Shown here: positions 15,076 through 26,477 of the stretch, piece by piece | How positions within the stretch are numbered: the first letter of the stretch is position 1 | Layout: each line of letters opens with the position of its first letter | IMG/VR virus record: IMGVR_UViG_3300010316_001058 | Coordinates: 1-60,259 of that record | Direction: 5' to 3' (one strand) | DNA: 60,259 nt | DNA from: a virus | The notes under the pieces: model-generated | Database searches by the model: none | Told to the model about the DNA's origin: nothing | The model's input: the letters and a program-made list of their open reading frames with translations, nothing else | Made by a program: the position numbers and the translations under genes

Positions 15076-15501
15076 ATGGGAACTCGTTCAACAATCGCAA
15101 TTGAAAACGCAGACGGCACAGTCACTGGCATCTATTGTCACTGGGATGGCTACCTCAGCAACAACGGCCGTATCCTGCAAGAGAACTACACAGACGAAGC
15201 TAAGGTGCGTGAACTGATCGCACTAGGCGACCTTAGCAGCTTGGGCGAGACTGTTGGCACCAAGCACAGCTTCGACAATGCTCCTCGCAACGAGTGCAAC
15301 GCTTACGGGCGCGATCGCGGCGAGAAGGATGTGGGTCCTGCGAGCTATGACACCTACGCAAACTTCCTTGACGTGATGGGGCAGGAGTTCGACTACTTGT
15401 TTGTGCCCGGCAAGGGCTGGCAAGTGCGCTACTTTGGCGAGTGGGAAAATACCGAAAGCCCGCTTGCAGAAGCACTGGTTAAGGACGCAGAAGAAGCGTA
15501 A
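15076..15501 (+). CDS. Conserved phage protein, MGTRSTIA family (141 aa)
   Basis: MGTRSTIAIENADGTVTGIYCHWDG, with WDGY-LSNNGRIL, LIALGDLSSLGE and a Gly-rich middle. This family occurs in very many tailed phages and some bacteria. It has no assigned function and is never essential in the cases I know of. Length and motif order are complete. Confidence 0.9.
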   Translation: MGTRSTIAIENADGTVTGIYCHWDGYLSNNGRILQENYTDEAKVRELIALGDLSSLGETVGTKHSFDNAPRNECNAYGRDRGEKDVGPASYDTYANFLDVMGQEFDYLFVPGKGWQVRYFGEWENTESPLAEALVKDAEEA

Positions 15502-15530
15502 GGCCGCGCTGCTATATATACACAAGCAGG

Positions 15531-15559
15531 TTGACAGAACGATCTGCTTGTGTTATACT
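15531..15559 (+). promoter_or_regulatory. Array promoter 18
   Basis: TTGACA-N17-TATACT. ACACAAGCAG (15520-15529) and CTGCTTGTGT (15544-15553) make a 10-bp inverted repeat around the -35, a strong operator candidate. Confidence 0.9.
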
Positions 15560-15577
15560 AAACGCACAACAAAGGTA

Positions 15578-16123
15578 ATGGAGGGTAGTACCATACCAAA
15601 TTGGAATTCGAATGTAATCATCATTGATGGACCTGCGGATAAGATCCGTGCGCTGTGGGACGCTGCACAACCTGCAGAAGGCAACGACGGCTCACTGCTG
15701 GAAGCAATGGCGCCCATCGGCGAGTGGGACTACGATACTGCTGTTACTGCTTGGGGCACCAAGTGGGATGTGTCGATGGAAGGGCTTCAGCTCATTGAAG
15801 GCGGCGACGGCACTGCGAGCATTCAGGGCTATGCTGACTCAGCTTGGGGCCCGCCCATTGAAGCGTTCCAGACCTATGCTGCGGCCAACGACGATGTGTT
15901 CCTGTCGCTGAAATACTTTGAACCCGGTATGAGCTTTATCGGACAGTGGGATTCAGAAGCAGGTGACGACTACTGGGAAGACGTGGGCAGCTTGCTGGAG
16001 ACTACTGCTGAGTCTGATCCGTTCCTTTACGAGCTTATGGAAGAGTTCGACGTGTGGGGTTGGTTTGACGACGAGGAAGAGGAAGACGAGACTGCTGAAG
16101 AGATCGAACTTAGCGAAGAATAA
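15578..16123 (+). CDS. YubB/DUF1281-like protein with altered start
   Basis: 181 residues. PNWNSNVIIIDGPADKIRALW resembles the family opening MPNWCxNxLxVxG of ferredoxin-fold YubB-like proteins. Here the codon before CCAAATTGG is ATA (15593-15595), not ATG. GGAGGG sits 7 nt before it, so the ancestral start seems to have mutated and translation may now begin at ATG 15578, adding MEGST. The C-terminus is extremely acidic (DDEEEEDETAEEIELSEE). The conserved Cys of the family is Asn here. Confidence 0.75.
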   Translation: MEGSTIPNWNSNVIIIDGPADKIRALWDAAQPAEGNDGSLLEAMAPIGEWDYDTAVTAWGTKWDVSMEGLQLIEGGDGTASIQGYADSAWGPPIEAFQTYAAANDDVFLSLKYFEPGMSFIGQWDSEAGDDYWEDVGSLLETTAESDPFLYELMEEFDVWGWFDDEEEEDETAEEIELSEE

Positions 16124-16126
16124 TGG

Positions 16127-16155
16127 TTGACACTAGGCCCTCCTTATGCTATTTT
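16127..16155 (+). promoter_or_regulatory. Array promoter 19 with operator reaching the ribosome site
   Basis: TTGACA-N17-TATTTT. GCCCTCCTT (16137-16145) and AAGGAGGGC (16169-16177) form a 9-bp inverted repeat. The right arm is the Shine-Dalgarno of the next gene. Confidence 0.85.
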
Positions 16156-16182
16156 GTATAAGTAACGCAAGGAGGGCATCAA

Positions 16183-16332
16183 ATGCGCATCACAATCAAA
16201 GCTGAAGACATCACTGTTCGCAACCGTGCTTATGGCGAGGCACGTTCGCAAGGGCGTCTTGCTACTCGCAGCATCTGCGACAAGACCAAATATCGCCGCA
16301 AAGAAAAACACAAAAAGAAGTTGACAGACTAG
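16183..16332 (+). CDS. Small basic early protein, 49 aa
   Basis: MRITIKAEDITVRNRAYGEARSQGR and a Lys/Arg-rich end (KYRRKEKHKKK). It is unlike the acidic neighbours. The last four codons (LTD stop) are the -35 region of the next promoter. Confidence 0.7.
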   Translation: MRITIKAEDITVRNRAYGEARSQGRLATRSICDKTKYRRKEKHKKKLTD

Positions 16333-16349
16333 GCCCTAGGTGCTATAAC
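16321..16349 (+). promoter_or_regulatory. Array promoter 20
   Basis: TTGACA-N17-TATAAC, inside the end of the basic 49-aa gene. Dyad CTAGG-CCCTAG. Confidence 0.85.
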
Positions 16350-16378
16350 TAACACATAAGCAACGAGAGGGACACAAG

Positions 16379-16594
16379 ATGCTTTACGTAGATGTTAAGA
16401 CTGTAACTGCAACTGAAGACGGTTTGTTTACTGTGGTACTTGCGTGTGACGGCGTAGAGGTGCAGTGCGAAGGCGTAGCGTGGTTTGACGCAGCATACGA
16501 CGAAGACGAGCTGATAGCAGTGTTTGAAGAATGGCAAGACTTGGCGCTTGAGCCCGAAGAAGGCTATACTTTTGTAGGCGAAACAGTATTGTAA
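16379..16594 (+). CDS. Acidic early protein, 71 aa
   Basis: MLYVDVKTVTATEDGLFTVVLACDGVEV, a beta-rich start, then an acidic helical part (FDAAYDEDELIAVFEEW). GAGAGGGACACAAG ribosome site. No family recognised. Confidence 0.75.
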   Translation: MLYVDVKTVTATEDGLFTVVLACDGVEVQCEGVAWFDAAYDEDELIAVFEEWQDLALEPEEGYTFVGETVL

Positions 16595-16600
16595 AAAAAT

Positions 16601-16648
16601 AGCAGTGCAGGCAAAATAACGCTTGCACTGCTCGTCATATGCTATAAC
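16601..16648 (+). promoter_or_regulatory. Array promoter 21 with degenerate -35 and upstream hairpin
   Basis: -10 TATAAC at 16643-16648 and leader AGGGCAACA are intact, but no TTGACA at the right place. AGCAGTGCA (16601-16609) and TGCACTGCT (16624-16632) form a 9-bp inverted repeat that replaces it and could act as a terminator hairpin or operator. Confidence 0.6.
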
Positions 16649-16677
16649 TAACACATAGGGCAACACACAGAAGGAAC

Positions 16678-16706
16678 TACACAATGGCACCGAAAGGTGC
16701 TATTGT
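16678..16706 (+). promoter_or_regulatory. Array promoter 22, -35 destroyed
   Basis: TACACA instead of TTGACA, spacer and TATTGT as promoter 1. It starts right after the ribosome site of promoter 21, as if the gene between the two promoters had been deleted. Confidence 0.65.
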
Positions 16707-16734
16707 TATTGTATAGGCAAACAAGGAGACGACG

Positions 16735-16890
16735 ATGACTAATGAGTATGTTGCGGAGCGGGTCAAGCGGTTGCTAGCGAACGAGATTGAAGACAACGAG
16801 ACTGAGATGGAGATGCTGACTGTGCTGCCCGATGGCTCACTTAAGGTGTATGGCTTCACTGGCGAAGCTGTTATAATTAATTTCAAATAA
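16735..16890 (+). CDS. Acidic early protein, 51 aa
   Basis: MTNEYVAERVKRLLANEIEDNETEMEML, helix then strands (LTVLPDGSLKVYGFTGEAVIINFK). AAGGAGACGACG ribosome site. No family recognised. Confidence 0.75.
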   Translation: MTNEYVAERVKRLLANEIEDNETEMEMLTVLPDGSLKVYGFTGEAVIINFK

Positions 16891-16894
16891 GGGG

Positions 16895-16923
16895 TTGACA
16901 TTGGCACCAAAGGGTGCTATATT
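16895..16923 (+). promoter_or_regulatory. Array promoter 23
   Basis: TTGACA-N17-TATATT. GCACC-AAAG-GGTGC. Leader AGGGCAAAC. Confidence 0.9.
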
Positions 16924-16959
16924 AAGTTATAGGGCAAACAAACAAAGAGGGACTACACA

Positions 16960-17175
16960 ATGGCTAACATGAGCTACTGCCGCTTCCAAAACACTGTACA
17001 AGATCTTCAGGATTGCTTCTACGCAATCGAAGAAGCTATTGAGCAGGGCGAGAGCATGGATCTTAGTGATGATGAGAAGCGCGCCTTCAATCGCATGTTC
17101 AACTTGATGGAGGACATGATGCCGATGATGGAAGCAGTCACTGAGCTCGAAGATGAGTTGGAGGCTGCTGAATGA
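16960..17175 (+). CDS. Conserved phage protein, MANMSYCRF family (71 aa)
   Basis: MANMSYCRFQNTVQDLQDCF followed by an acidic helix pair with several Met. The signature MANMSYCRFxNTxxDLxDC is familiar from many phage genomes. Function unknown. It overlaps the next gene by ATGA, indicating coupling. Confidence 0.85.
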   Translation: MANMSYCRFQNTVQDLQDCFYAIEEAIEQGESMDLSDDEKRAFNRMFNLMEDMMPMMEAVTELEDELEAAE

Positions 17176-17363
17176 GCTGGGACCGCACAGGGGAGAGTGT
17201 CACTGGCGCATACCTTGAACAGTTCGACTTCACAGGCGTCGTTGAGTCGTCGCGTGTGACCTATGGTGGAGCAATTCAGCACACCATCTTACTTGGTAAT
17301 GAAATTATTGTATTCGATGTGGCGCGTGAACGCCTGTTGGTACTTGAAGGAGACTTGAAATGA
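17172..17363 (+). CDS. Early protein, 63 aa
   Basis: MSWDRTGESVTGAYLEQFDFTGVVES, beta-rich with FDVARERLLVLEGDLK at the end. The pattern GxVExSRVxYGG resembles short beta-barrel phage proteins. Coupled to both neighbours by overlapping stop/start codons. Confidence 0.75.
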   Translation: MSWDRTGESVTGAYLEQFDFTGVVESSRVTYGGAIQHTILLGNEIIVFDVARERLLVLEGDLK

Positions 17364-17431
17364 TTACTGCACTTATCGGTATGTTCGCTATCCCCTTGAT
17401 GCCCGTTGCTATCGGAATGGTGTATGCTTAA
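17360..17431 (+). CDS. Tiny membrane peptide, 23 aa
   Basis: MITALIGMFAIPLMPVAIGMVYA is one hydrophobic helix. GAAGGAGA lies at ideal distance and ATG overlaps the previous TGA. It is too short to judge by homology, but the ribosome site and coupling favour expression. Confidence 0.55.
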   Translation: MITALIGMFAIPLMPVAIGMVYA

Positions 17432-17477
17432 CATCCGCGGCGCCGAGCACCGTGCGATCTACGACAGCATTCCTTAA
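17424..17477 (+). CDS. Possible 17-aa peptide
   Basis: MLNIRGAEHRAIYDSIP, overlapping the membrane peptide stop. No own ribosome site. Listed only because all stop/start overlaps in this run are coupled. Confidence 0.3.
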   Translation: MLNIRGAEHRAIYDSIP

Positions 17478-17486
17478 ACAAAATGG

Positions 17487-17515
17487 TTGACAATGGCACC
17501 GAAAGGTGCTATTGT
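17487..17515 (+). promoter_or_regulatory. Array promoter 24
   Basis: TTGACA-N17-TATTGT, spacer as promoter 1. Leader AGGGCAAACAAG, exact complement of RNA loop 3. Confidence 0.9.
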
Positions 17516-17552
17516 TATTGTATAGGGCAAACAAGCTAAAGGAGTTTAGCAC

Positions 17553-17840
17553 ATGGGACGCAAGACAATTGAAGTTGGCAAGCTGTTGAAGATTGCAAAT
17601 AACTTCCTCGCAGCAGAAGCAACAACCGCCGAAGAGCGCGAAGGCGTCTGTTCTATCATCGAAGCGGCGCTGTTCGAAAGCGGCAACTATGAAGGCTTCC
17701 GCTACCTCGAGCAAGAGCATCACGCAGACGGCACGTTGAAGACATTGGGCTGCGGCTCACGACGCTATTACTTCACTAACAAGGTCACGCAAGAAGCCTT
17801 TGCCGCCGAAGACCGTAACATCAACAAGATTCGCGTGTAA
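17553..17840 (+). CDS. Conserved phage protein, 95 aa
   Basis: KLLKIANNFLAAEATTAEEREGVCSIIEAALF and NYEGFRYLEQE...CGSRRYYF follow a pattern I recognise from small conserved proteins of several phage groups (helical start, G-NY-GF-YL, then RRYY). Ribosome site CTAAAGGAGTTTAGC, with flanking arms that can pair (CTAAA/TTTAG). Confidence 0.8.
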   Translation: MGRKTIEVGKLLKIANNFLAAEATTAEEREGVCSIIEAALFESGNYEGFRYLEQEHHADGTLKTLGCGSRRYYFTNKVTQEAFAAEDRNINKIRV

Positions 17841-17844
17841 GAGG

Positions 17845-17872
17845 TTGACAGCAGCCGCAGAGATGCTATTAT
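17845..17872 (+). promoter_or_regulatory. Array promoter 25
   Basis: TTGACA, 16-nt spacer, TATTAT. No clear dyad. Leader diverged (GTAGACAACAAAG). Confidence 0.85.
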
Positions 17873-17902
17873 AAACAAGTAGACAACAAAGAGGGTACTT
17901 AT

Positions 17903-18103
17903 ATGTCGACTATCGAACAACGAGCTGACTGGGCAATGGCCGCAGCGGACAACATCGATCGCAACCTTGCTGACGCAGTGGACGGCGACCTCGACAACAT
18001 CCAAGAACATATGTACACCTTAGCGCACGACGGCGCAGTGGATGCCGGCGCTACAATGGAAGACGCAACAGAAATCGCAATCATGCTAGCAGGAGAACAA
18101 TAA
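17903..18103 (+). CDS. Early protein, 66 aa
   Basis: MSTIEQRADWAMAAADNIDRNLADAV, helical and acidic. Stop overlaps the next ATG (TAATG). Confidence 0.75.
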   Translation: MSTIEQRADWAMAAADNIDRNLADAVDGDLDNIQEHMYTLAHDGAVDAGATMEDATEIAIMLAGEQ

Positions 18104-18291
18104 TGTTTACAGTTTACTTTGCCCGTGGGTACTTCAACGAAGAGATCGTGGCTACATGCCGCACAGAAGAAGCAGCAGTTGCCCGAGCAGACGAAGAGTT
18201 TGCTAACGGTAGCCGCGACATTGAGGTCTACGATAGCGCAGGTGTGTGCATCTACGTAGCCGACGAAGAAGTGTTGTTCGACGAATATTAA
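18103..18291 (+). CDS. Early protein, 62 aa
   Basis: MFTVYFARGYFNEEIVATCRTEEAAVARADEEF, ending VYDSAGVCIYVADEEVLFDEY. Alpha/beta pattern, acidic. AGGAGAACAATA precedes the start and TAATG couples it to the gene before. No family recognised. Confidence 0.75.
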   Translation: MFTVYFARGYFNEEIVATCRTEEAAVARADEEFANGSRDIEVYDSAGVCIYVADEEVLFDEY

Positions 18292-18294
18292 TGG

Positions 18295-18323
18295 TTGACA
18301 GCCACTAGTGATCGTGCTATATT
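18295..18323 (+). promoter_or_regulatory. Array promoter 26
   Basis: TTGACA-N17-TATATT. Palindrome CACTAGTG in the spacer. Confidence 0.9.
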
Positions 18324-18359
18324 AAGTTATAGGCAAACAAACAAAGAGGGTACTACACA

Positions 18360-18644
18360 ATGTCAAATGTACGCACAGCAATCCAAGCAATCCGCGGTAT
18401 GAGCAACGACGAGATCAATGAGATCATGGAAGCGATCCGGCTCCAGCGTAACTTTAACTCAAAGGACGCTGTGCGTTCGTTTATGGTCGGCGACACTGTC
18501 AAATTCAACGCTGGTCCACGCCGCGGTATGCGCTACGGCACTGTTACCAAAGTCAACATCAAAAACATCAAGGTGCGCACCACAGACGGTGCCAACTGGA
18601 ATGTTGCTGCTACGCTGCTGGAACAGGATACTTCCAAAGCGTAA
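18360..18644 (+). CDS. KOW-like early protein, 94 aa
   Basis: Helical N-terminus (VRTAIQAIRGMSNDEINEIMEAI) joined to a beta-barrel module with VGDTVKFNAGPRRGMRYGTVTKVNIKN, a pattern like KOW/SH3 nucleic-acid-binding units and of a type I recognise in phages. The size and the VGDxVxF start of the barrel fit. Function unknown; RNA or ribosome binding is possible. Confidence 0.8.
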   Translation: MSNVRTAIQAIRGMSNDEINEIMEAIRLQRNFNSKDAVRSFMVGDTVKFNAGPRRGMRYGTVTKVNIKNIKVRTTDGANWNVAATLLEQDTSKA

Positions 18645-18653
18645 CACATCACC

Positions 18654-18673
18654 AGCAGGGCTTAGGCCCTGCT
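18654..18673 (+). terminator. Hairpin AGCAGGGC-TTAG-GCCCTGCT
   Basis: Perfect 8-bp stem with 4-nt loop just after the KOW-like gene. No U-tract follows, so it may be a processing or stability element. Confidence 0.5.
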
Positions 18674-18705
18674 TCACCGCCGATATCATAACTAGGAGAG
18701 AACAG

Positions 18706-18876
18706 ATGTCAAAGAGTATTGTTAATCAGATTACCTCAATGAGCGAACGGCGGATCGAACAACTGGCAGCATCACTTTACGCTGCTGACCCAGCACAGGC
18801 AATGGCACTGGCCAAAGCGATTGGGTTCGAAGATATGGAAGCCATGCTAGACAGCCGGGAGGGTGTTGCGGTATAA
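18706..18876 (+). CDS. Early protein, 56 aa
   Basis: MSKSIVNQITSMSERRIEQLAASLYAADP, helical, ending LDSREGVAV. AGGAGAGAACAG gives the start. It immediately precedes the tRNA cluster. No family recognised. Confidence 0.7.
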   Translation: MSKSIVNQITSMSERRIEQLAASLYAADPAQAMALAKAIGFEDMEAMLDSREGVAV

Positions 18877-18885
18877 ATAGACTAC

Positions 18886-18962
18886 GCTCCAGTAGCACAA
18901 TTGGTTAGTGCATTCCGCTCATAACGGAACGGTTGTAGGTTCAAGTCCTACCTGGAGCACCA
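18886..18962 (+). tRNA. tRNA with CAT anticodon (Met, or Ile if lysidine-modified)
   Basis: Full cloverleaf: acceptor GCTCCAG/CTGGAGC, anticodon loop CTCATAA on stem TTCCG/CGGAA, T-arm with GGTTCAAGTCC, encoded CCA at 18960-18962. G1-C72 argues against an initiator. Confidence 0.9.
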
Positions 18963-18965
18963 TAC

Positions 18966-19049
18966 GCCCCCTTGGTGGAATGGTAGACGCGGGAGACTTA
19001 AAATCTCCTTCCTTAGGGAGTGCCAGTTCGAGTCTGGCAGGGGGCACCA
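18966..19049 (+). tRNA. tRNA-Leu (TAA)
   Basis: Acceptor GCCCCCT/AGGGGGC, long variable arm (CCTTCCTTAGGGAGT), anticodon loop CTTAAAA giving TAA, T-arm GTTCGAGTC, encoded CCA. 84 nt as expected for class II. Confidence 0.92.
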
Positions 19050-19057
19050 TAGTTAAC

Positions 19058-19118
19058 GGATCCTTAGCTCAGCTGGGGAAGAATATATTTGATGGACCCT
19101 TAGCTCAGCTGGTGAGCT
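19058..19118 (+). pseudogene. Two tRNA 5'-half fragments
   Basis: GGATCCTTAGCTCAGCTGG (19058) and GGACCCTTAGCTCAGCTGG (19094) are the acceptor 5' strand and D-arm of tRNAs, without the remaining parts. They look like remnants of lost tRNA genes. Confidence 0.75.
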
Positions 19119-19142
19119 ATTGAAGCGTAGAATACATATGCT

Positions 19143-19219
19143 GTCTCCGTGGCACAACTGGACAGCGCAAGGCACTTCTAATGCCTAGGTTGGGGGTTCG
19201 AGTCCCTCCGGGGACACCA
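19143..19219 (+). tRNA. tRNA-Arg (TCT)
   Basis: Acceptor GTCTCCG/CGGGGAC (one G-U), anticodon loop CTTCTAA giving TCT, T-arm GGTTCGAGTCC, CCA encoded. A 12-bp inverted repeat, AGAATACATATG (19129-19140) and CATATGTATTCT (19218-19229), encloses the gene and overlaps the CCA. Confidence 0.92.
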
Positions 19220-19264
19220 TATGTATTCTTCGATCAAAAAGTACTCTTCCTGCTAACTTTTCGG

Positions 19265-19293
19265 TTGACATCGGTATCAATCAGTGCTATAAC
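19265..19293 (+). promoter_or_regulatory. Array promoter 27
   Basis: TTGACA-N17-TATAAC. Spacer dyad degenerate (GGTATCAATCAGTGC). Leader AGGCAAAC. Confidence 0.85.
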
Positions 19294-19326
19294 TAATGTA
19301 TAGGCAAACAAACAAAGGGTAGCAAG

Positions 19327-19515
19327 ATGACAGCAACAGAAAAAGCAATGGCAGCAGAATTGGAGATCAGTAAGTGCCTCGAGGCACTTACTGATCTCCA
19401 GCTGCTTACCGCTATGGAAGCACTCGACAGTGACCCAGCGCCGCAGCATGTTAAAGATCTTATCATGCGCAAAATCAACAGCATTATGAATGTGCGTATT
19501 GGATTGGAGGCGTAA
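19327..19515 (+). CDS. Early protein, 62 aa, with 40-bp palindrome in its gene
   Basis: MTATEKAMAAELEISKCLEALTD, helical. Codons 12-25 are written by a perfect 40-bp palindrome (19361-19400), arm TGGAGATCAGTAAGTGCCTC. It may be a genuine symmetric helix coding segment, an operator or an insertion of palindromic DNA. Followed closely by the zinc-ribbon gene. Confidence 0.65.
   Translation: MTATEKAMAAELEISKCLEALTDLQLLTAMEALDSDPAPQHVKDLIMRKINSIMNVRIGLEA
19361..19400 (+). repeat. Perfect 40-bp palindrome
   Basis: Two 20-nt arms without a spacer, inside a coding region. In mRNA it would form a 20-bp hairpin with no loop apart from the fold itself. Confidence 0.95.
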
Positions 19516-19516
19516 G

Positions 19517-19780
19517 ATGGCAACGTGTCCAGAGTGCTTTGAACGCAAACCGTTTTGGGCTCGTCGTTGCCATAGTTGCAACGAAGAGATTGGATTCTTG
19601 CGTCAGCTATATACTCAGTGGGTGATCCTTACAGTGACCTTTGGGTCTATGTGGGTGTTCTATGCTGCGTTCGCAGGCGGCGTTTGGCATGCATTGTTCT
19701 GGAGCCTAGTTTGGGTGCTTGGTCCACTCATCATTGCGTTTCCGTTCATATTCATCTATTTTCTAAAGTTTGCAAAATAA
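19517..19780 (+). CDS. Zinc-ribbon membrane protein, 87 aa
   Basis: MATCPECFERKPFWARRCHSC is a four-cysteine zinc ribbon (CPEC...CHSC). After a short linker come two hydrophobic helices (about residues 32-55 and 58-82), ending in FLKFAK. The start ATG 19517 has GGAGG 8 nt upstream. The arrangement of a cytoplasmic zinc ribbon plus a TM hairpin is common in small bacterial proteins. Role unknown; a membrane-targeting partner is possible. Confidence 0.75.
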   Translation: MATCPECFERKPFWARRCHSCNEEIGFLRQLYTQWVILTVTFGSMWVFYAAFAGGVWHALFWSLVWVLGPLIIAFPFIFIYFLKFAK

Positions 19781-19784
19781 ACGG

Positions 19785-19812
19785 TTGACACTAGCGCGTT
19801 AGGTGCTATACT
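19785..19812 (+). promoter_or_regulatory. Array promoter 28
   Basis: TTGACA, 16-nt spacer, TATACT. Dyad CTA-GCGCGT-TAG. Leader AAGCAAAG. Drives the AAA+ gene. Confidence 0.85.
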
Positions 19813-19839
19813 AAACAAGTAAGCAAAGAAGGGCAACGT

Positions 19840-20835
19840 ATGACACAGATTAAAATCAACAACGGTAGCTATAAGATCCGCGGCGCTGAGACTAGCATGT
19901 CCGGCAATGTGTTTGAGCTTGTAGAAGAATTCAAAGTTGGTAAGATTGGCGGCTACGTAACCGTAGATGGTCGTAGCGTTGCCGGCTTGCCCGATCGCAA
20001 CATCAAGATCCGCTGCGATGGTCCAGAAGACTACACGGTGGTCACAGGCCCCGCTAATGTACAGGCGATTGACGAAACAGACGAGCAGATCATTGAGCGG
20101 CTTCGCAACCGTTTCGACATGCTTTCGGAGATGACCAAAGCAGTCAAGAAGGGCGCTGTTGGCGCTATGATCGTAAGCGGACCTCCAGGCGTTGGCAAGT
20201 CACATGGTGTTGAGGAAGTGCTTGATCGGTATCAGATGGTTGAGACGCTGGGTGGCAGTCAGAAGCACGAGGTAGTCAAAGGCGCAATGAGCGCGATTGG
20301 CTTGTACTGCAAGCTCTACAAGTTCTCCGACAAGGACAACGTGTTGGTGTTCGACGACTGTGACAGCATCTTTAACGACGAGCTGTCGCTTAACATTATG
20401 AAGGCGGCACTTGACTCAAAGAAGAAGCGTGTGATTCACTGGAACACAGATAGCTACAAGCTACGCAACGAAGGTGTGCCAGATCAGTTCGAGTTCAAAG
20501 GCTCGGCGATCTTTATCACTAACTTGAAGTTCGACAAAGTCAAAGGCAAGCTGCGCGAGCACCTTAAGGCACTTGAGTCACGCTGCCACTACATTGACTT
20601 GACAATTGATACAGACCGCGAGAAGATGCTGCGCATCAACCAAATCGTACAGGACGGCATGTTGGACAGCTACGGCTTCGACGACGAGACACTTGAAGAG
20701 ATCATTGACTTCGTTGACATCAACAAAGATCAACTGCGTGAATTGAGCCTGCGTACTGTACTGAAGATCGCAGACTTAGTAAAGAGCTTTCCAGATCGCT
20801 GGGGCGACTTTGCACAGAATACCGTTATGCGGTAA
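19840..20835 (+). CDS. AAA+ ATPase
   Basis: 331 residues. Walker A VSGPPGVGKSHG (about residues 112-122), Walker B VLVFDDCDS (about 178), sensor-1-like AIFITNLKF, and an arginine-rich region SRCHYIDL near the end of the ATPase domain. The first 90 residues are beta-rich and lack the ATPase motifs. Similar ATPases of unknown role are found in T4-like phages (not gp44). It is the largest gene in the array and stands right before the structured RNA. Possible roles are DNA remodelling or a host-takeover chaperone; neither is shown. Confidence 0.9.
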   Translation: MTQIKINNGSYKIRGAETSMSGNVFELVEEFKVGKIGGYVTVDGRSVAGLPDRNIKIRCDGPEDYTVVTGPANVQAIDETDEQIIERLRNRFDMLSEMTKAVKKGAVGAMIVSGPPGVGKSHGVEEVLDRYQMVETLGGSQKHEVVKGAMSAIGLYCKLYKFSDKDNVLVFDDCDSIFNDELSLNIMKAALDSKKKRVIHWNTDSYKLRNEGVPDQFEFKGSAIFITNLKFDKVKGKLREHLKALESRCHYIDLTIDTDREKMLRINQIVQDGMLDSYGFDDETLEEIIDFVDINKDQLRELSLRTVLKIADLVKSFPDRWGDFAQNTVMR

Positions 20836-20842
20836 CGAGATG

Positions 20843-21024
20843 GTGTTGCGTTTGGCAGGTTGAGCTATGCTCCCGCAAACGCAACACTTAAAGCAGGGTT
20901 AACCTGCGACAGTGCTGGACACTTGTTTGCCCTCGGTCCAGCGCACTACAGAGCAAGAGTGCTGCCCTCGCACTATGCTCTAACTGCTCGGGATGCGGTT
21001 GCCCTGCTGCTCCCGAGCATTTTT
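20843..21024 (+). ncRNA. Five-hairpin RNA with loops complementary to early mRNA leaders
   Basis: After the AAA+ stop come HP1 (12-bp stem, 20843-20854 with 20876-20887), HP2 (GCAGG/CCTGC, 20893-20907), HP3 (stem GCTGGAC/GTCCAGC, loop 20921-20935), HP4 (GAGCA and AGTGC with GCACT and TGCTC, loop TGCCCTC, 20951-20980) and HP5 (TGCTCGGGA/TCCCGAGCA, 20985-21019, then TTTTT). The HP3 loop holds CTTGTTTGCCCT, exact antisense of the leader AGGGCAAACAAG. The HP5 loop holds GTTGCCCT, antisense of AGGGCAAC. No ORF fits the region. Transcription could continue from promoter 28 or start nearby. The function is inferred from base complementarity. Confidence 0.7.
20985..21024 (+). terminator. Rho-independent terminator
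   Basis: 9-bp stem TGCTCGGGA/TCCCGAGCA followed by TTTTTC. It ends the structured RNA, and the next promoter begins 4 nt later. It is the clearest intrinsic terminator in the array. Confidence 0.8.
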
Positions 21025-21027
21025 CTC

Positions 21028-21056
21028 TTGACAAGACGTCCAAACGGTGTTACTAT
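21028..21056 (+). promoter_or_regulatory. Array promoter 29 (divergent leader)
   Basis: TTGACA-N17-TACTAT. Leader GAAAGTAAGAAAC lacks AGGGCA, so this message would escape pairing with the upstream RNA. Confidence 0.7.
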
Positions 21057-21083
21057 GAAAGTAAGAAACAAAGGAGAGTCCGA

Positions 21084-21434
21084 ATGAATAAGCTCATCGC
21101 AGTCGCACTGGCTGGCATTGTGTTCGTAACCCCGGCGCAGGCTGGCAATGAAGATGTCATCGTCGGAGCCATTGTTGGCGCGATCCTTGGCAAGGTGCTC
21201 AGTGATAGTCACGGGCATCAGCCACAGTACTATCCACAGCACAGCCCACAAGTTCAGCTACCACAGCACAACCCACGCAACTCACCACGCTTGCCGGGCT
21301 ACTCACGTGGTGTAAACAACCCTAGCGCAGTGTGCTCGAGCACAGCACAGCACAGTGGGAACTGGGTTATCGTGCGTCAATATAACTGCTATGGCGAACT
21401 GCTCGGTGTTCAAAAGAGTGTGCGTCACTACTAA
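21084..21434 (+). CDS. Exported protein with glycine-zipper
   Basis: 116 residues. Signal peptide MNKLIAVALAGIVFVTPAQA. The mature start NEDVIVGAIVGAILGKVL is a glycine-zipper-like helix. The middle is rich in His, Gln, Pro (PQYYPQHSPQVQLPQHNP). The C-terminus has WVIVRQYNCYGELLG, similar to the CYGN end of the His-rich protein at 6319. It probably acts in the periplasm or outer membrane; function unknown. Confidence 0.75.
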   Translation: MNKLIAVALAGIVFVTPAQAGNEDVIVGAIVGAILGKVLSDSHGHQPQYYPQHSPQVQLPQHNPRNSPRLPGYSRGVNNPSAVCSSTAQHSGNWVIVRQYNCYGELLGVQKSVRHY

Positions 21435-21441
21435 TTAGTGG

Positions 21442-21470
21442 TTGACATTGGCACCGTTCAGTGCTATAGT
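21442..21470 (+). promoter_or_regulatory. Array promoter 30
   Basis: TTGACA-N17-TATAGT. GCAC-CGTTCA-GTGC. Leader AGGGCAACA. Confidence 0.9.
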
Positions 21471-21506
21471 ATATGTATAGGGCAACACGCTAAAGGAGAT
21501 TAGCAC

Positions 21507-21701
21507 ATGACTCAGTGGAAAGATATTTCAACGTTCGACTACGGTGCGTATCGCTATGTGGACGTGCTAGTGCGTGGCAAGGATGGTGTGGCTGTGGCTG
21601 CTTGGGACCCCGCGGAATTTGCATTCATCTCCGACCTCCGCGGCAAAGGTATGGGGGAAACCGTATACGGCCCAGTTGCTTGGATGGAAATTCCAGAGTA
21701 A
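21507..21701 (+). CDS. Early protein, 64 aa
   Basis: MTQWKDISTFDYGAYRYVDVLVRGKDGVAVAAW, ending GPVAWMEIPE. The beta-strand pattern with WxxI start and GPVAWMxxP end resembles short conserved phage proteins. Ribosome site CTAAAGGAGATTAGC. Confidence 0.75.
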   Translation: MTQWKDISTFDYGAYRYVDVLVRGKDGVAVAAWDPAEFAFISDLRGKGMGETVYGPVAWMEIPE

Positions 21702-21711
21702 GGATAATGAG

Positions 21712-21864
21712 ATGACTAGAATTTTTATAGTGATGATGATCGTGACTCTTGTAGTGGGACTTGCGTCAGTGTCCTTTGTGGTCAGCAAGTGTGGCGCCAA
21801 GGGGCTGCTCTACGGCAATGGCGCGGTGATCGTTGCTGCTTCAGGAGTGTGCGACGACAAATAA
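21712..21864 (+). CDS. Small membrane protein, 50 aa
   Basis: MTRIFIVMMIVTLVVGLASVSFVV is a single TM helix or signal anchor, followed by KCGAKGLLYGNGAVIVAASGVCDDK with two cysteines, possibly a periplasmic disulfide. It follows the 64-aa gene after 10 nt, with AAGGATAATGAG as ribosome site. Confidence 0.7.
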   Translation: MTRIFIVMMIVTLVVGLASVSFVVSKCGAKGLLYGNGAVIVAASGVCDDK

Positions 21865-21868
21865 ATGG

Positions 21869-21897
21869 TTGACATTGACACCATTAGGTGCTATAGT
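21869..21897 (+). promoter_or_regulatory. Array promoter 31
   Basis: TTGACA-N17-TATAGT. ACACC-ATTA-GGTGC. Leader AGGGCAACAAGG with the ribosome site directly attached. Confidence 0.9.
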
Positions 21898-21922
21898 ATA
21901 TGTATAGGGCAACAAGGAGATA

Positions 21923-22093
21923 ATGAAAATGACCAACTGCTGCGCAAAGAATAAAGTCTGGGTTAATAAGTTCGCTGACCTTGAGGTTCAGGACGTCGAT
22001 AGCAAGGGTGCTCTAACCAAAGATTATGTTGCCTTTGATGTAAATGTTTTTATTTGCAAGGTTTGCAATAAAATTCATTTAAGCGCGGATTAG
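21923..22093 (+). CDS. Small Cys-containing early protein, 56 aa
   Basis: MKMTNCCAKNKVWVNKFADLEV, ending FICKVCNKIHLSAD. The CC and CxxC pairs suggest a small zinc ribbon. AAGGAGATA ribosome site lies within the leader AGGGCAACAAGGAG. No family recognised. Confidence 0.7.
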   Translation: MKMTNCCAKNKVWVNKFADLEVQDVDSKGALTKDYVAFDVNVFICKVCNKIHLSAD

Positions 22094-22095
22094 GC

Positions 22096-22124
22096 TTGTA
22101 ATCTGCACCATTAGGTGCTATAGT
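22096..22124 (+). promoter_or_regulatory. Array promoter 32, weak -35
   Basis: TTGTAA-N17-TATAGT. Perfect GCACC-ATTA-GGTGC dyad. It overlaps nothing and begins 3 nt after the stop. Confidence 0.75.
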
Positions 22125-22159
22125 ATATGTATAGGGCAACAACACAAGAGGGCAACAAG

Positions 22160-22510
22160 ATGGCATATGTAAGCAAAGAAGACAAAGCGAAGTTGGCACC
22201 AGCGATCAAAGCTGTGCTTGCCAAGTACAACATGAAGGGCACGATCGCCGTGCGTCATCACAGCACATTGGTTGTCACTGTGCGTCAAGGCGCTATCGAC
22301 TTCGGTGGCACCGACATCGACGTTAACGTTTATTGGATTCACGAGCACTACAAGGGCAAGGCTAAGAAGTTCCTTACAGAGCTGCTGGCGGCTATGAAGG
22401 GGCCGGACTTCTTTGATCACTCAGACTCAATGACTGATTACTTCCACCGCAGCCACTACACAGACATCAACATCGGCGCATGGAACAGGCCATACGCGCT
22501 GGCCAAGTAA
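22160..22510 (+). CDS. Conserved phage protein, MAYVSK family, copy 2 (116 aa)
   Basis: MAYVSKEDKAKLAPAIKAVLAKYNMKGT; copy 1 is at 12895. Both keep HHS/NHS-LVV and the end YTDINIGAWNRPY. The middle is shortened by about 26 residues. Start ATG 22160 is preferred to the upstream in-frame codon because AGAGGGCAAC is well placed. Confidence 0.85.
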   Translation: MAYVSKEDKAKLAPAIKAVLAKYNMKGTIAVRHHSTLVVTVRQGAIDFGGTDIDVNVYWIHEHYKGKAKKFLTELLAAMKGPDFFDHSDSMTDYFHRSHYTDINIGAWNRPYALAK

Positions 22511-22533
22511 CACACAAACAAAGGACGAACATC

Positions 22534-22878
22534 ATGGGAATTTATTACAGAGGCATCAGCAAGCGCACTCGCACTGTCAAAGGCGTTACGTTTGCGTTCA
22601 CTAACTTCCACGGCAAAGCGCCAGTGAACCGAGTCGAACCCAACCGAGCGTGGAACACCTTTGTTACCAAGAGCTCAAAGACCGCAGACGAGATGGCGCT
22701 CAAGGTCAACTATGTAGTCATGGCCAACACCATCACCGAGATGGCCGAATATGGCGAGACTGTGATCGCTGCGTGGAATGGACAGTCGACTATGGACGAT
22801 CACTTTTGGGACACCAAGGCTGTTGGCAAGGTGATCAAGCGTGGCAAGCGGTGGCAGGTTGAGTTCAGCCCTGCCTAA
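22534..22878 (+). CDS. Early protein, 114 aa
   Basis: MGIYYRGISKRTRTVKGVTFAFTNFHGKAP, basic at the start, then NYVVMANTITEMAEYGETVIAAWNGQ and a basic end (IKRGKRWQVEFSPA). ACAAAGGACGAAC precedes the start. It shares the promoter of copy 2, giving a two-gene unit. No family recognised. Confidence 0.75.
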   Translation: MGIYYRGISKRTRTVKGVTFAFTNFHGKAPVNRVEPNRAWNTFVTKSSKTADEMALKVNYVVMANTITEMAEYGETVIAAWNGQSTMDDHFWDTKAVGKVIKRGKRWQVEFSPA

Positions 22879-22887
22879 ACAAAATGG

Positions 22888-22916
22888 TTGACATCGGAAC
22901 CGTTTGATGCTATATT
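22888..22916 (+). promoter_or_regulatory. Array promoter 33
   Basis: TTGACA-N17-TATATT. Dyad decayed (GGAACCGTTTGATGC). Leader AGGGCAAAC. Confidence 0.9.
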
Positions 22917-22952
22917 ATATGTATAGGGCAAACAACCAAAGAGAGACGCACA

Positions 22953-23690
22953 ATGATTAAGTTTACAAGCATCGTAGCCGCTGCAATGATTACCGCAGGA
23001 GCGGCATCAGCATGTGAATACAAAGCACACAACATCAACATTGACTTCAACGGCACCGCGCCAATTGCAGGTGCGTGTGAAGGCGCAGTGACAGCGATCA
23101 AGTTCTTTGAAGATGTAGGCTACGACGAGCAAGTGTTCACTGTAAACATCACAGTCACTGACGCTGTCTACACTTACATGACAAACGAGAACACAGGCGA
23201 AGAGATTCCGCTTCGTGCGTTTGGCCTGTATGACGGCGAATCAAATCAAATCACAATAAGCGCCTTGGGCACTGACTACATGAACTCACGCACTGCATGG
23301 AACACTGATGCGCGTGATGACACCAGCGGCATGCCAATCACTGAAGAGATTTGGGCAAGCGTTATTACACACGAGACAGCTCATGCACTTAGCACACAGG
23401 TCTTCAACAGGCTGAACCCTGTGATGGTGAGCAACGGCTATTTTATGCCACATGGCCCAAGCGAGTATATTTCTTACATGATTCAACTCGCTACTACACG
23501 CGATGAACTGCGTGATGAGATCATTGCCAGCTTTGACAACCCTACAGCGTTTGCACACAGAGACAACTTGAATCCGTATGTCCACTTTGCTCACCCACAC
23601 AAGTATGGCGTCCGCGCGTACCTTACACAGAACATGGATTGGTTCCATAATGCACTGAGCGGCAAGTTTGGTCAACTGCCGGATTGGTAA
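22953..23690 (+). CDS. Exported zinc metallopeptidase-like protein
   Basis: 245 residues. Signal peptide MIKFTSIVAAAMITAGAASA. The zinc motif HETAH (in VITHETAHALSTQ, about residues 143-147) gives HExxH with the catalytic Glu. A possible downstream ligand is Glu in GPSEYISY, about 28 residues later. This resembles secreted peptidase-like proteins of alphaproteobacteria and is most likely host derived. Expression from an early promoter suggests action on the cell envelope during takeover rather than lysis. The exact peptidase family is not certain. Confidence 0.8.
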   Translation: MIKFTSIVAAAMITAGAASACEYKAHNINIDFNGTAPIAGACEGAVTAIKFFEDVGYDEQVFTVNITVTDAVYTYMTNENTGEEIPLRAFGLYDGESNQITISALGTDYMNSRTAWNTDARDDTSGMPITEEIWASVITHETAHALSTQVFNRLNPVMVSNGYFMPHGPSEYISYMIQLATTRDELRDEIIASFDNPTAFAHRDNLNPYVHFAHPHKYGVRAYLTQNMDWFHNALSGKFGQLPDW

Positions 23691-23698
23691 ATTAGAGG

Positions 23699-23727
23699 TT
23701 GACAATGGCACCACTAGGTGCTATTGT
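23699..23727 (+). promoter_or_regulatory. Array promoter 34
   Basis: TTGACA-N17-TATTGT. GCACC-ACTA-GGTGC. Confidence 0.9.
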
Positions 23728-23764
23728 TATTGTATAGGCAAACAACAAAAGACGAGGGCAGTCA

Positions 23765-24319
23765 ATGAAGTTTATCAAAGTTATCGCGCACACAGTCAAT
23801 GTCGCGGCATTAGCCGGCATGATTGGAGTATACGCAGCAAACAATGTCGCAGCAGACACAGCACAAGACACGATGTCAGTTGCTGATATTGTAGGCGCCG
23901 CCGAACTACTGTGTCTACAGCAAAACATCTACTTCGAAGCAGGCAACCAAAGCCTGCTGGGCAAGGTATCCGTTGCGTGGGTCACACTCAATCGAGTAGA
24001 GGACGATCGTTATCCAGGAACGATCTGCGGCGTAGTCAAGCAAGGACTCAAGGATGACAAGGGCAACATGATCCGACACAAGTGTCAGTTCAGCTGGTAC
24101 TGCGATGGCAAGGCTGATACTGTTTCTGACAACGTTATCGAGCAGCGCGCCTGGCAAGACAGTCAGATAGTTGCCGAGGTTGTGCTGCTAGACTGGGCTC
24201 GTGCTATGCAGTCACCAGTTGGCGAAGCTGTTATGTATCACGCAGACTATGTCGAGCCATACTGGGCTTCAAGCTACGATCGCGTGGTACAGATCGACAC
24301 TCACATTTTTTACGAATAA
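23765..24319 (+). CDS. Cell wall hydrolase, SleB/Hydrolase_2 family
   Basis: 184 residues. N-terminal hydrophobic segment (about 7-30) as signal or anchor, then the SleB-type domain with CLQQNIYFEAGNQSLLGKVSV (catalytic Glu in YFEA), VTLNRVEDDRYPGTICGVV, CQFSWYCDG and YHADYV. These enzymes cleave cortex or murein glycan strands. In phages the family serves as endolysin or muralytic enzyme. Its position in the early array, next to the exported metallopeptidase, is unusual for a lysis gene. No holin is adjacent, though the tiny membrane genes are candidates. Confidence 0.9.
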   Translation: MKFIKVIAHTVNVAALAGMIGVYAANNVAADTAQDTMSVADIVGAAELLCLQQNIYFEAGNQSLLGKVSVAWVTLNRVEDDRYPGTICGVVKQGLKDDKGNMIRHKCQFSWYCDGKADTVSDNVIEQRAWQDSQIVAEVVLLDWARAMQSPVGEAVMYHADYVEPYWASSYDRVVQIDTHIFYE

Positions 24320-24323
24320 GGGG

Positions 24324-24352
24324 TTGACAACGGTGTCAATCAATGCTATAAC
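24324..24352 (+). promoter_or_regulatory. Array promoter 35
   Basis: TTGACA-N17-TATAAC. Spacer GGTGTCAATCAATGC without a strong dyad. Leader AGGCAAACAAGG. Confidence 0.9.
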
Positions 24353-24381
24353 TAGTGTATAGGCAAACAAGGAGACACGCG

Positions 24382-24783
24382 ATGACACATACTTTTGAAG
24401 CAAACATTTTTTCCGACTTGTTCAAAGATGCGCGTGGCTACCGTCCAGACAGCGGACACGAGTTCTACATGCTGGACACCACCGACGATCGCAAGCAAGA
24501 GATCTGGGACAGCATGATCGAAGAGTTCAACGAAGCACAAGAAGCAGAGCAGAAGCGCGAAGCTGCGGCACTTGCTGCGTTTGAAGCTCGTGTTGCTGCG
24601 ACACGCGCACTTGGTGCCAGCACTGACGTCGAAGCGATCAAATGGATCCTTGACGCAGAAGGCATGGACGAGTACGATTACATGTACGGCGCTGATGCTG
24701 CGGCTTTCCACTTCGGACTTGCTTACAGCAATCCATTCAAAGAACTATTCACTCAAGCAATGACTAAGGAGACGACACAATGA
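24382..24783 (+). CDS. Acidic helical early protein, 133 aa
   Basis: MTHTFEANIFSDLFKDARGYRPDSGHEFYML, then a long Ala/Glu helix (FNEAQEAEQKREAAALAAFEARVAATRAL) that is coiled-coil-like, and a hydrophobic end. Overlaps the next gene by ATGA. No family recognised. Confidence 0.75.
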   Translation: MTHTFEANIFSDLFKDARGYRPDSGHEFYMLDTTDDRKQEIWDSMIEEFNEAQEAEQKREAAALAAFEARVAATRALGASTDVEAIKWILDAEGMDEYDYMYGADAAAFHFGLAYSNPFKELFTQAMTKETTQ

Positions 24784-24935
24784 GCTTTATTCCATTTATC
24801 CTCCAAGGTGCGTTCTTTGGATACGTACTCGGCAACTTTTTGTCAATGGAGACTGACCTACTAGCGTTCATAGGCCTGTGCCTCATCAACGCCGCGCTGG
24901 TGATTGTCTACGGCGACCACCGCCGCAACGAATAA
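24780..24935 (+). CDS. Small two-helix membrane protein, 51 aa
   Basis: MSFIPFILQGAFFGYVLGNFLSM and LLAFIGLCLINAALVIVYG are two hydrophobic helices separated by ETD, ending in the basic YGDHRRNE. This is a holin-like size and topology, and it is translationally coupled to the helical gene. It is about 460 bp after the SleB hydrolase, so a holin role is conceivable but unproven. Confidence 0.7.
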   Translation: MSFIPFILQGAFFGYVLGNFLSMETDLLAFIGLCLINAALVIVYGDHRRNE

Positions 24936-24939
24936 ATGG

Positions 24940-24968
24940 TTGACATCGACACCAAACGGTGTTATCGT
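24940..24968 (+). promoter_or_regulatory. Array promoter 36
   Basis: TTGACA-N17-TATCGT. ACACC-AAAC-GGTGT dyad. Confidence 0.9.
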
Positions 24969-24995
24969 AAGTTATAGGCAAACAAGGAGAAGACT

Positions 24996-25475
24996 ATGGG
25001 ACTTGATATGTATCTGACTGCTGAGCGTTACCTTTGGGGATCCGGCGACAACACTGACAAAGACGTCAAAGCTGCTATCCAAAAGATGATGCCAGAGACT
25101 GCGGGCATGGAAGTCAAGACCGTGAGCATCGAAGCCATGTACTGGCGCAAGGCCAACGCTATCCACAAGTGGTTCGTTGACACACTACAGGAAGGAGTCG
25201 ACGAGTGTCAGACTACTCGACTCGAATGGGATAGCCTTGTTCAGCTTCGCGCACTGTGTCAGAGTGTACTTGCTGATCATTCTATTGCTCCAGACGTGCT
25301 GCCAGCAGGCGGCGGGTTCTTCTTTGGCAACACTGAGTACGACGAGTGGTACTTCGACACCCTAGAGCGTACCGTTGAAGGCATTGACCGCATTGAGAAT
25401 CAGTTGGTGGCTGAAACGGACCGATCCGGTGTGCCGTACAGCCAGTGGGAATTCAAATACCAAAGTTCCTGGTAA
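24996..25475 (+). CDS. Conserved phage protein, MGLDMYL family (159 aa)
   Basis: MGLDMYLTAERYLWGSGD and VKTVSIEAMYWRKANAIHKWFVDTLQEG, then GGGFFFGNTEYDEWYFDTLERT, are family signatures known from very many phages, function unknown. The YWRKANAIHKWFV core is the best conserved. AAGGAGAAGACT ribosome site. Confidence 0.9.
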   Translation: MGLDMYLTAERYLWGSGDNTDKDVKAAIQKMMPETAGMEVKTVSIEAMYWRKANAIHKWFVDTLQEGVDECQTTRLEWDSLVQLRALCQSVLADHSIAPDVLPAGGGFFFGNTEYDEWYFDTLERTVEGIDRIENQLVAETDRSGVPYSQWEFKYQSSW

Positions 25476-25482
25476 TAAGAGG

Positions 25483-25511
25483 TTGACAATGGCACCATTG
25501 GGTGCTAGTAT
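25483..25511 (+). promoter_or_regulatory. Array promoter 37
   Basis: TTGACA-N17-TAGTAT. GCACC-ATTG-GGTGC. Leader AGGGCAAAC. Confidence 0.85.
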
Positions 25512-25544
25512 AAGTGTATAGGGCAAACAAACAAGGAACATGAT

Positions 25545-25721
25545 ATGATAGTCTATGCTGTGATGTGCGAGAGCTACAACGGTGAGCGCGATGTGACTGA
25601 GGTCTATACCTTGTATGCTAACAAGAACGATGCCGAAGCCTTTGTAGCCACTGCGATGGCTGGCAAGCGCAGTTCATATTCGCCTACATATTATGTTGAC
25701 CCAATGGAAGTTATTGGTTGA
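25545..25721 (+). CDS. Early protein, 58 aa
   Basis: MIVYAVMCESYNGERDVTEVYTLYANKNDAEAF, alpha/beta, ending YYVDPMEVIG. This pattern (Y-V-CE, YxxxxDAE) is like a widespread small phage protein. The stop TGA is inside the next -35. Confidence 0.75.
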   Translation: MIVYAVMCESYNGERDVTEVYTLYANKNDAEAFVATAMAGKRSSYSPTYYVDPMEVIG

Positions 25722-25746
25722 CAAAGGCACCATTTGGTGCTAGTAT
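25718..25746 (+). promoter_or_regulatory. Array promoter 38
   Basis: TTGACA-N17-TAGTAT, overlapping the preceding stop. GCACC-ATTT-GGTGC. Confidence 0.85.
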
Positions 25747-25780
25747 AAGTGTACAGGGCAACACGCTAAGGAGTTAGCAC

Positions 25781-26182
25781 ATGACAAAGACATTTACCCG
25801 CGTAGGCATCAGCACTAACAAAGGCAAGACTCAGTTCCGCTACACCAACGACCTCAACCGTGAGACGGTGCTCAGCAAGAACGGTCACACTGACATCGTG
25901 TTCTACGAGCTCGGCGAAGCGTTGACCAAAGAGCAGGCAAGCGAAGTTATGAGCAACATCCTTGCTCAAGCTGCTAGCGGCGCATTGGAAGCAACACCCG
26001 ACGATGGCTTTGTTGAACCCAAGGACGAAGCTGTCCAGGTAGCAATGTGCCAAGCTGCTCGCGACAATCCAACACTGGACGCGCAAGCTTTGTTCATGCT
26101 AGTGACTGCTCCGGAAGTCGAAGAGGAGTGGACCCCTGAGAATGCCGACTACTGCGATGTTGGATCGCGTCATCATTATTAA
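25781..26182 (+). CDS. Early protein, 133 aa
   Basis: MTKTFTRVGISTNKGKTQFRYTNDLNRETVL, a beta-rich start, then LGEALTKEQASEVMSNILAQ and a helical acidic end. Ribosome site CTAAGGAGTTAGC with pairing flanks, as at 17553 and 21507. No family recognised. Confidence 0.75.
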   Translation: MTKTFTRVGISTNKGKTQFRYTNDLNRETVLSKNGHTDIVFYELGEALTKEQASEVMSNILAQAASGALEATPDDGFVEPKDEAVQVAMCQAARDNPTLDAQALFMLVTAPEVEEEWTPENADYCDVGSRHHY

Positions 26183-26192
26183 ATAATAATGG

Positions 26193-26221
26193 TTGACAAT
26201 GGCACCATTAGGTGCTATAGT
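26193..26221 (+). promoter_or_regulatory. Array promoter 39
   Basis: TTGACA-N17-TATAGT. GCACC-ATTA-GGTGC. Leader AGGGCAAACAAG (26230-26241), exact complement of RNA loop 3. Confidence 0.9.
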
Positions 26222-26252
26222 ATATGTATAGGGCAAACAAGAGGACTTGAAC

Positions 26253-26477
26253 ATGTCAACATCATTGCGCGACGTAACTCCAACACTCCTGCAGACACGC
26301 TTCTTTGGCGGACAGAACCGCGGCCCATGTGTACAAGTTACACAGACGCAGATGAAGAGCTGTGCTGCAAGCAACCCACAAGGTGTGCAGTTCCTGCAAC
26401 TCACACGCAACGAAGCAGCACTGTTGGCAGCAGAGTTGTTGCGCTTTGCTACAGGCAACGAAGTGGAGGAAGTATAA
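26253..26477 (+). CDS. Early protein, 74 aa
   Basis: MSTSLRDVTPTLLQTRFFGGQNRGPCVQVTQ, then QFLQLTRNEAALLAAELLRFATG. The FFGGxNRGxCVQ pattern and the C-terminal helix look like a conserved phage family. Stop/start TAATG couples it to the next gene. Confidence 0.75.
   Translation: MSTSLRDVTPTLLQTRFFGGQNRGPCVQVTQTQMKSCAASNPQGVQFLQLTRNEAALLAAELLRFATGNEVEEV

Follow-up and report, generated by a model that had tools for sequence, protein, structure and literature searches.

A multi-hairpin RNA in the 3' UTR of a phage clamp-loader-like gene carries loops complementary to shared early leader words

For the end and the balance of early expression in large virulent phages, most of what is known involves proteins, or else switches of sigma factor or RNA polymerase. 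The RegA protein of phage T4 is a translational repressor of early genes, and the CsrB/RsmZ-type sponges are hairpin arrays that repeat one loop word and have a global effect at sites overlapping the Shine-Dalgarno (SD) sequence. The LhrC1-5 RNAs of Listeria monocytogenes carry three redundant C-rich UCCC sites (two in loops and one in a single-stranded stretch) that bind the G-rich ribosome site and block translation, and one molecule could bind several mRNAs (PMC4132741). Pairing of a C-rich (UCCC) loop with the SD is also found in the Gram-positive small RNAs RsaE, RNAIII, SprD, and FsrA (PMC4132741). CisR is a 3' UTR-derived small RNA acting on phage CTXphi, according to the available part of its description (PMC13250501), and the phage-encoded regulatory RNAs OOP, PreS, VpdS, DicF, 24B_1, aQ, and sas each act on one or a few phage or host mRNAs, or via Hfq, in the available part of the review that covers them (PMC12197685).

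The DNA analyzed here was the 60-kb virus record IMGVR_UViG_3300010316_001058 (60,259 nt; the whole stretch is termed the window), a fragment of an uncultured phage. It has relatives among the jumbo phages, with the helicases of Sinorhizobium phage Phosso and Agrobacterium phage Atu_ph07 being 50-55% identical to that of the window. The gene at 19840-20835 (+) codes for a clamp-loader-like AAA+ ATPase (phrog_1250; Pfam AAA) with only a weak match to the phage clamp loader phrog_168, and its 3' end bears a structured RNA both in the window and in relatives. This element (20843-21024, +) starts after the stop codon of the gene, lies within its 3' UTR, and shares its terminator, with one branch of relatives having an intervening gene; it is not necessarily a free-standing gene. 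A tRNA cluster (tRNA-Met(CAT), tRNA-Leu(TAA), and tRNA-Arg(TCT); 18886-19219) was identified approximately 600 nt upstream of the clamp-loader-like gene, and tRNAs also lay a short distance upstream of it in the L005 locus and some other relatives. Elsewhere in the window, a Nol-like carbamoyltransferase gene was found at 32131-33600 (-) (phrog_1601; E 4e-101) that is possibly a phage modification gene.

An earlier note, made from the letters of the window, had described five hairpins ending in a U-tract terminator, and the fold reproduced all of them. The minimum free energy (MFE) of 20843-21024 was -88.3 compared to a mean of -61.1 for shuffled sequences (z = -6.4), with 0 of 200 shuffles equally stable, and the element occupies the homologous position in relatives. 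Hairpin 1 (20843-20887) has a long perfect stem lacking a leader complement and is followed by the small hairpin 2 (20893-20907; loop GTTAA). Hairpin 3 (20912-20944) has the loop ACTTGTTTGCCCTCG, in which two weak pairs partly close the loop in the MFE fold and are open in the centroid. The 12-nt stretch CTTGTTTGCCCT (20922-20933) in this loop was confirmed to be the exact complement of the AGGGCAAACAAG leaders at 10131, 17524, and 26230, and the other two loop words reported in that note were also present: TGCCCTC (20963-20969) in the loop of hairpin 4 (20950-20981) and GTTGCCCT (20998-21005), complementing the AGGGCAAC class of leaders, in the loop of hairpin 5 (20985-21019). Hairpin 5 forms the terminator stem and is followed by the U-tract (TTTTT; 21020-21024) of the intrinsic terminator.

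The predicted targets are located on the + strand from approximately 9.5 to 27 kb, a region of numerous small genes that mostly have individual sigma70-like promoters. These are probably early genes, judging by the host-type promoters and the layout. A total of 24 sigma70-like promoters (TTGACA-14-TGCTAT) were each followed by AGGGCAA at the expected start site. The leader word AGGGCAAC was identified at 9511-9518, 11491-11498, 11762-11769, 11989-11996, 12572-12579, 12869-12876, 13366-13373, 13642-13649, 13872-13879, 14398-14405, 14736-14743, 16657-16664, 21479-21486, 21906-21913, 22133-22140 (with a second copy, GAGGGCAAC, at 22148 that constitutes the SD), 25755-25762, and 26813-26820. Leaders with AGGGCAAACAA lay at 9742-9752, 16931-16941, 22925-22935, and 25520-25530, while the 12-nt AGGGCAAACAAG leaders spanned 10131-10142, 17524-17535, and 26230-26241. 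The leader of the clamp-loader-like gene itself also contained AGGGCAAC (19830-19837, +) and is a predicted self-target.

All 24 leaders had a perfect complement of at least 8 nt in the 182-nt RNA, distributed across three loops, compared to a mean of 1.1 for dinucleotide shuffles, none of which reached 24 in 2,000 trials; the complement was at least 9 nt in seven leaders and 12 nt in three. At the 7-mer level, other stretches of the window (around 50,500) scored as high as the RNA, such that the significance rests on the 8-mers and the comparative data. Predicted duplex energies were -20.5 kcal/mol for loop 3 with AGGGCAAACAAG and -14.6 kcal/mol for GUUGCCCU, with -12.3 kcal/mol for the GCCCUC/GAGGGC pair and -13.3 kcal/mol for the class B pair of the relatives described below. 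In the window, most of the match fell on the mRNA 5' end, some 15-25 nt ahead of the AUG, and the SD box itself was a poor loop match (0.09). A separate feature of the 34 promoter sites in the window (9474-28531; e.g., 9705, 11726, 12535, and 13835) was that the 14 nt separating TTGACA from the extended -10 TGCTAT often formed a palindrome whose sequence differed between sites (GCACC-gaaa-GGTGC, CAGCC-ttag-GGCTG, and GCATCA-gtgct-TGATGC). Perfect dyads of 5 bp or more occurred in 16 of the 34 spacers compared to 9% of shuffled spacers, and these palindromes could be an operator or hairpin feature of the early promoters.

A protein search with the clamp-loader-like gene product identified 11 IMG/VR loci, six of which (L002-L007) had several hairpins with GCCCTC loops right after the stop codon. 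The SD box in these class A phages was GAGGGC, with 17-19 of approximately 20 copies in L002 and L005 placed just before an ATG. A scan of IMG/VR with a pattern taken only from the RNA (GCCCTC three times, loosely spaced) returned 21 stretches. In 19, the hit lay directly 3' of the clamp-loader-like gene, and the remaining two were chance hits. Clade A comprised 27 loci besides the window. In many of its members, the final codons of the gene formed part of the first hairpin, whose loop contained the stop codon, making the class A RNA physically part of the 3' end of the gene's mRNA. On a 275-kb contig, 19 of 20 forward GAGGGC-ATG sites were within 219.9-230.6 kb, around the RNA and on its strand, and the clamp-loader-like gene's own leader contained the word in 17 of the 27 A loci scored (two of the 27 being B phages). 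The L003 locus had GAGGAGC leaders with GCCCTCA loops, a complement of only about 5 nt. Among the loci as a whole, L079 had the RNA with few matching leaders. The leaders of L004 were mostly GAGGGAA, and its RNA (4580-4790) had a terminator loop of TTCCCTC with the other loops still GCCCTC, a possible small-scale co-change. An AT-rich subclade within class A (L058-L065, L068, L072, and L073) was without both the RNA and GAGGGC, constituting a natural co-loss suited to comparisons of early regulation.

More distant relatives had the hairpin loop CGATTCGCTCCCGG at the homologous place and GGAGCGAA as the SD; in this class B, the loops carried UUCGCUCC and the leader box was GGAGCG(AA). A scan requiring the class B loop word GATTCGCTCCC twice returned 67 stretches, most of them directly 3' of the gene, and clade B comprised over 60 loci with the class B word in the clamp-loader-like gene's own leader in 46 of 63. 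In one (basal) branch, a gene intervened between the clamp-loader-like gene and the RNA, which had only a single motif hairpin. This CCGATTCGCTCCCGG hairpin lay 600-855 nt downstream in those members whose sequence extended far enough, and phages first scored as leader-only likewise had it at this distance where the sequence sufficed; the exception in both cases was L106, in which a few leaders had the word and the RNA was not found. A blind search for hairpin arrays sharing a loop 6-mer recovered the GCCCTC and GATTCGCTCCC arrays along with unrelated low-complexity or coding cases, and a third class was not established. Scanning genome contigs with the class B pattern gave 34 hits that were other repeats, with no clamp-loader neighbor and no comparable element. 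The GCGAATCACAGATTCGCTCCCACAG repeats dispersed in the bacterial genome Natronospirales MAG22 (L183, L189, L200, L202, L209, L212, and L214) contained the class B word by coincidence. At the sensitivity used, the window region and class A had no match in cultured phages and class B gave chance-level hits only; PA5oct and Vibrio phage D479 had no gap for an RNA at the homologous place, and the annotated PA5oct lncRNA near the clamp-loader homolog had no repeated loop word.

The coupling of loops and leaders was evaluated per phage by comparing the 6-mers of the hairpin loops with the 20 nt preceding each open reading frame (ORF). ORFs were called simply, as the longest from an ATG with a minimum of 45 aa, which dilutes the leader fractions. 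For class A RNAs, the matched fraction was 0.30 among their own leaders, 0.29 among those of other class A phages, and 0.016 among class B leaders, while class B RNAs matched 0.23 of their own, 0.22 of other class B, and 0.012 of class A leaders. The controls for A and B gave 0.018 and 0.042 with minus-strand ORFs and 0.051 and 0.040 with shuffled loops. Placing 110 loci on the gene tree, many of them fragments that limit claims of absence, gave 23 with class A RNA and class A leaders, 51 with class B RNA and class B leaders, 29 with neither, and none with crossed classes in either direction. The seven exceptions were five B RNAs without called leaders and two leader-only loci; one of them, L038, carried loop variants. 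Class A formed a single clade with strong support, placed beside or within class B. The RNA and the word were both lost in a nine-phage subclade within A, and in a six-phage subclade near B the RNA was lost and the word nearly so. RNA presence changed about four times on the tree and a phylogenetic sign test had no power; with so few independent joint changes, the case for coupling is the exact complementarity seen in two lineages, and it would be hard to explain otherwise how each lineage came to hold exact complements.

The stems varied around these constant loops. In an alignment of 15 class B sequences (one architectural subset, with the L153 row not aligning), 12 of the 20 consensus pairs had two-sided changes and the loops were invariant; in the outer stem of hairpin 1, all six pairs had two-sided compensatory changes. 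Class A stems had several Watson-Crick types at each position. The total MFE of the two strands gave no preference for either, and the strand call therefore rests on the terminators and wobble pairs. This strand neutrality agrees with a CsrB/RsmZ-like decoy made from the opposite strand, whose loops would show GAGGGC or GGGAGCGAA and titrate a leader-binding translational repressor protein. CsrA-type proteins recognize GGA words at SDs, and RNAs with multiple hairpins titrate them. Such a decoy is nevertheless very unlikely, given that in most loci a + strand U-tract came after the final hairpin, compared to preceding A-runs only 2-5 long, that mismatches inside stems were G-U in 14 cases versus A-C in four, and that array and upstream gene are collinear. 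The evenly spaced copies near a replication gene would also suit loop sites for a phage or host RNA-binding protein or a DNA motif such as iterons, with one DNA-binding protein reading both places; a double-stranded word would read as either GAGGGC or GCCCTC. The chance of this is fainter still, since the leader copies have a single orientation at SD spacing while the RNA copies are reversed and held in hairpin loops with covarying stems, which a DNA site does not need.

Ordinary stacked intrinsic terminators with C-rich loops that happen to match G-rich SD words would account for the last hairpin, which is a terminator, and a degree of anti-SD complementarity comes with any CUCC-like loop. 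The probability of this is almost negligible: the class-specific extensions match their own phages only, with crossed fractions of about 1%, the inner hairpins are without U-tracts, and the loops are invariant while the stems vary. A different question is posed by pairing as proposed with a positive effect, the RNA shielding early mRNAs from RNases or opening leaders for longer or better translation. The evidence for pairing says nothing on its sign, and the window match covers the extreme 5' end of the mRNAs, a place at which pairing could protect against 5'-dependent decay, but the paired word in most relatives is the SD itself, 1-9 nt before the ATG, where a ribosome block is expected. A positive effect is thus unlikely, although it retains some weight.

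The preferred reading, which we hold to be probable, is of a 3'-UTR-borne, multi-loop anti-SD phage RNA that binds, and likely blocks ribosomes on, a shared early regulon including its host gene. Loop-leader pairing is well supported by the sequence comparisons, which also document the conserved structure, strand, position, and loop-leader complementarity with joint change; from these, we infer pairing in the cell, repression rather than activation, and a role in ending the early phase. The intrinsic terminator would end an RNA carried in the 3' UTR of the clamp-loader-like replication gene, its hairpin loops displaying a word exactly complementary to the early-leader word (GAGGGC, GGAGCG(AA), or AGGGCAA in the window) that overlaps or adjoins the SD site. 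The loops would pair in trans with the leaders, most likely blocking ribosome binding on many early mRNAs at once. In most relatives the word and the SD overlap, such that the loops should compete with the 30S subunit for this site, and the window match at 15-25 nt before the AUG is still within the 30S footprint. GAGG or GGAG is enough for the 16S anti-SD and the GC or CGAA extension is without a partner in the 16S 3' end; the extension matches the loops but not 16S, which suggests selection for the RNA rather than the ribosome. The targets would include the mRNA bearing the RNA, giving a shut-off or dosage feedback tied to replication gene expression. With targets clustered around the RNA on its strand and usually including its gene, the simplest circuit has self-repression: expression of the replication gene would yield the multi-loop RNA from its 3' end, and the early set together with the gene itself would be turned down.

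The central proposal of the earlier note, one phage RNA whose loops pair with a common early leader word, has therefore gained support at the sequence level from the shuffled controls, the covarying stems, and relatives, in which leader word and loops are retained, replaced, or lost jointly. Its placement of the pairing next to the ribosome site held and was extended in most relatives, in which the word is the SD itself; the window differs, with its match at the mRNA 5' end. We further lean towards the view that the early-gene ribosome-binding word has been standardized as a private RNA operator, read by a dedicated replication-gene-linked multi-loop RNA that switches off the whole regulon, with the words replaced together (UUCGCUCC/GGAGCGAA to GCCCUC/GAGGGC). 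If true, a single RNA addressing many early messages by a private SD word would act as a regulon switch made of RNA. The joint replacement of the word in dozens of leaders and in the loops of one RNA would then be an unusual regulon-wide coevolution. The reading directly predicts the outcome of loop/leader swaps between the classes and provides two orthogonal word pairs.

Compared to known systems, the element had no Rfam match of any kind and no homology to LhrC; only tRNAs exceeded the gathering threshold in Rfam 15, the best sub-threshold hit being 13.7 bits versus 81.3 needed (E 2.7). CsrB/RsmZ RNAs copy the target word and titrate a protein, whereas the present RNA carries the complement of the leader word, on a strand assigned from the terminator and wobble pairs, and does not belong to these sponges. 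The likeness to T4 RegA is that one phage factor would act on many early mRNAs at initiation sites, with RegA being a protein and the present factor an RNA. As with CisR, as far as the available part of its description goes, the RNA is carried at an mRNA 3' end, but here the gene and the predicted targets are all phage-encoded (PMC13250501). A literature search of open-licence papers found no phage RNA of this design, in line with the earlier note, and none of OOP, PreS, VpdS, DicF, 24B_1, aQ, and sas is described as multi-loop and matched to a shared early leader word in the available part of the review (PMC12197685). Like anti-SD small RNAs, its unpaired loops complement the SD region of several mRNAs beyond chance, and several motif copies occur per RNA (3-5 in most class A and 2-3 in many class B members, with a single copy in the basal branch). 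The nearest mode of action is that of LhrC with its redundant C-rich sites at the ribosome site; however, LhrC is host-encoded, stress-induced, and multicopy with a generic UCCC, compared to a phage-encoded, replication-gene-linked RNA with a lineage-specific 6-8 nt word matching the early leaders of one phage (PMC4132741). RsaE, RNAIII, SprD, and FsrA have scattered host targets, while the target word here appears standardized across a regulon. The present RNA probably works like the LhrC/RsaE-type small RNAs and is unrelated to them. Having no Rfam family and, at the sensitivity used, no match in cultured phages, and differing from the phage small RNAs in the available part of the review, it is therefore classed as a new RNA family whose mechanism is of a known kind, in which the novelty is the private, lineage-specific word common to the loops and the leaders of the regulon.
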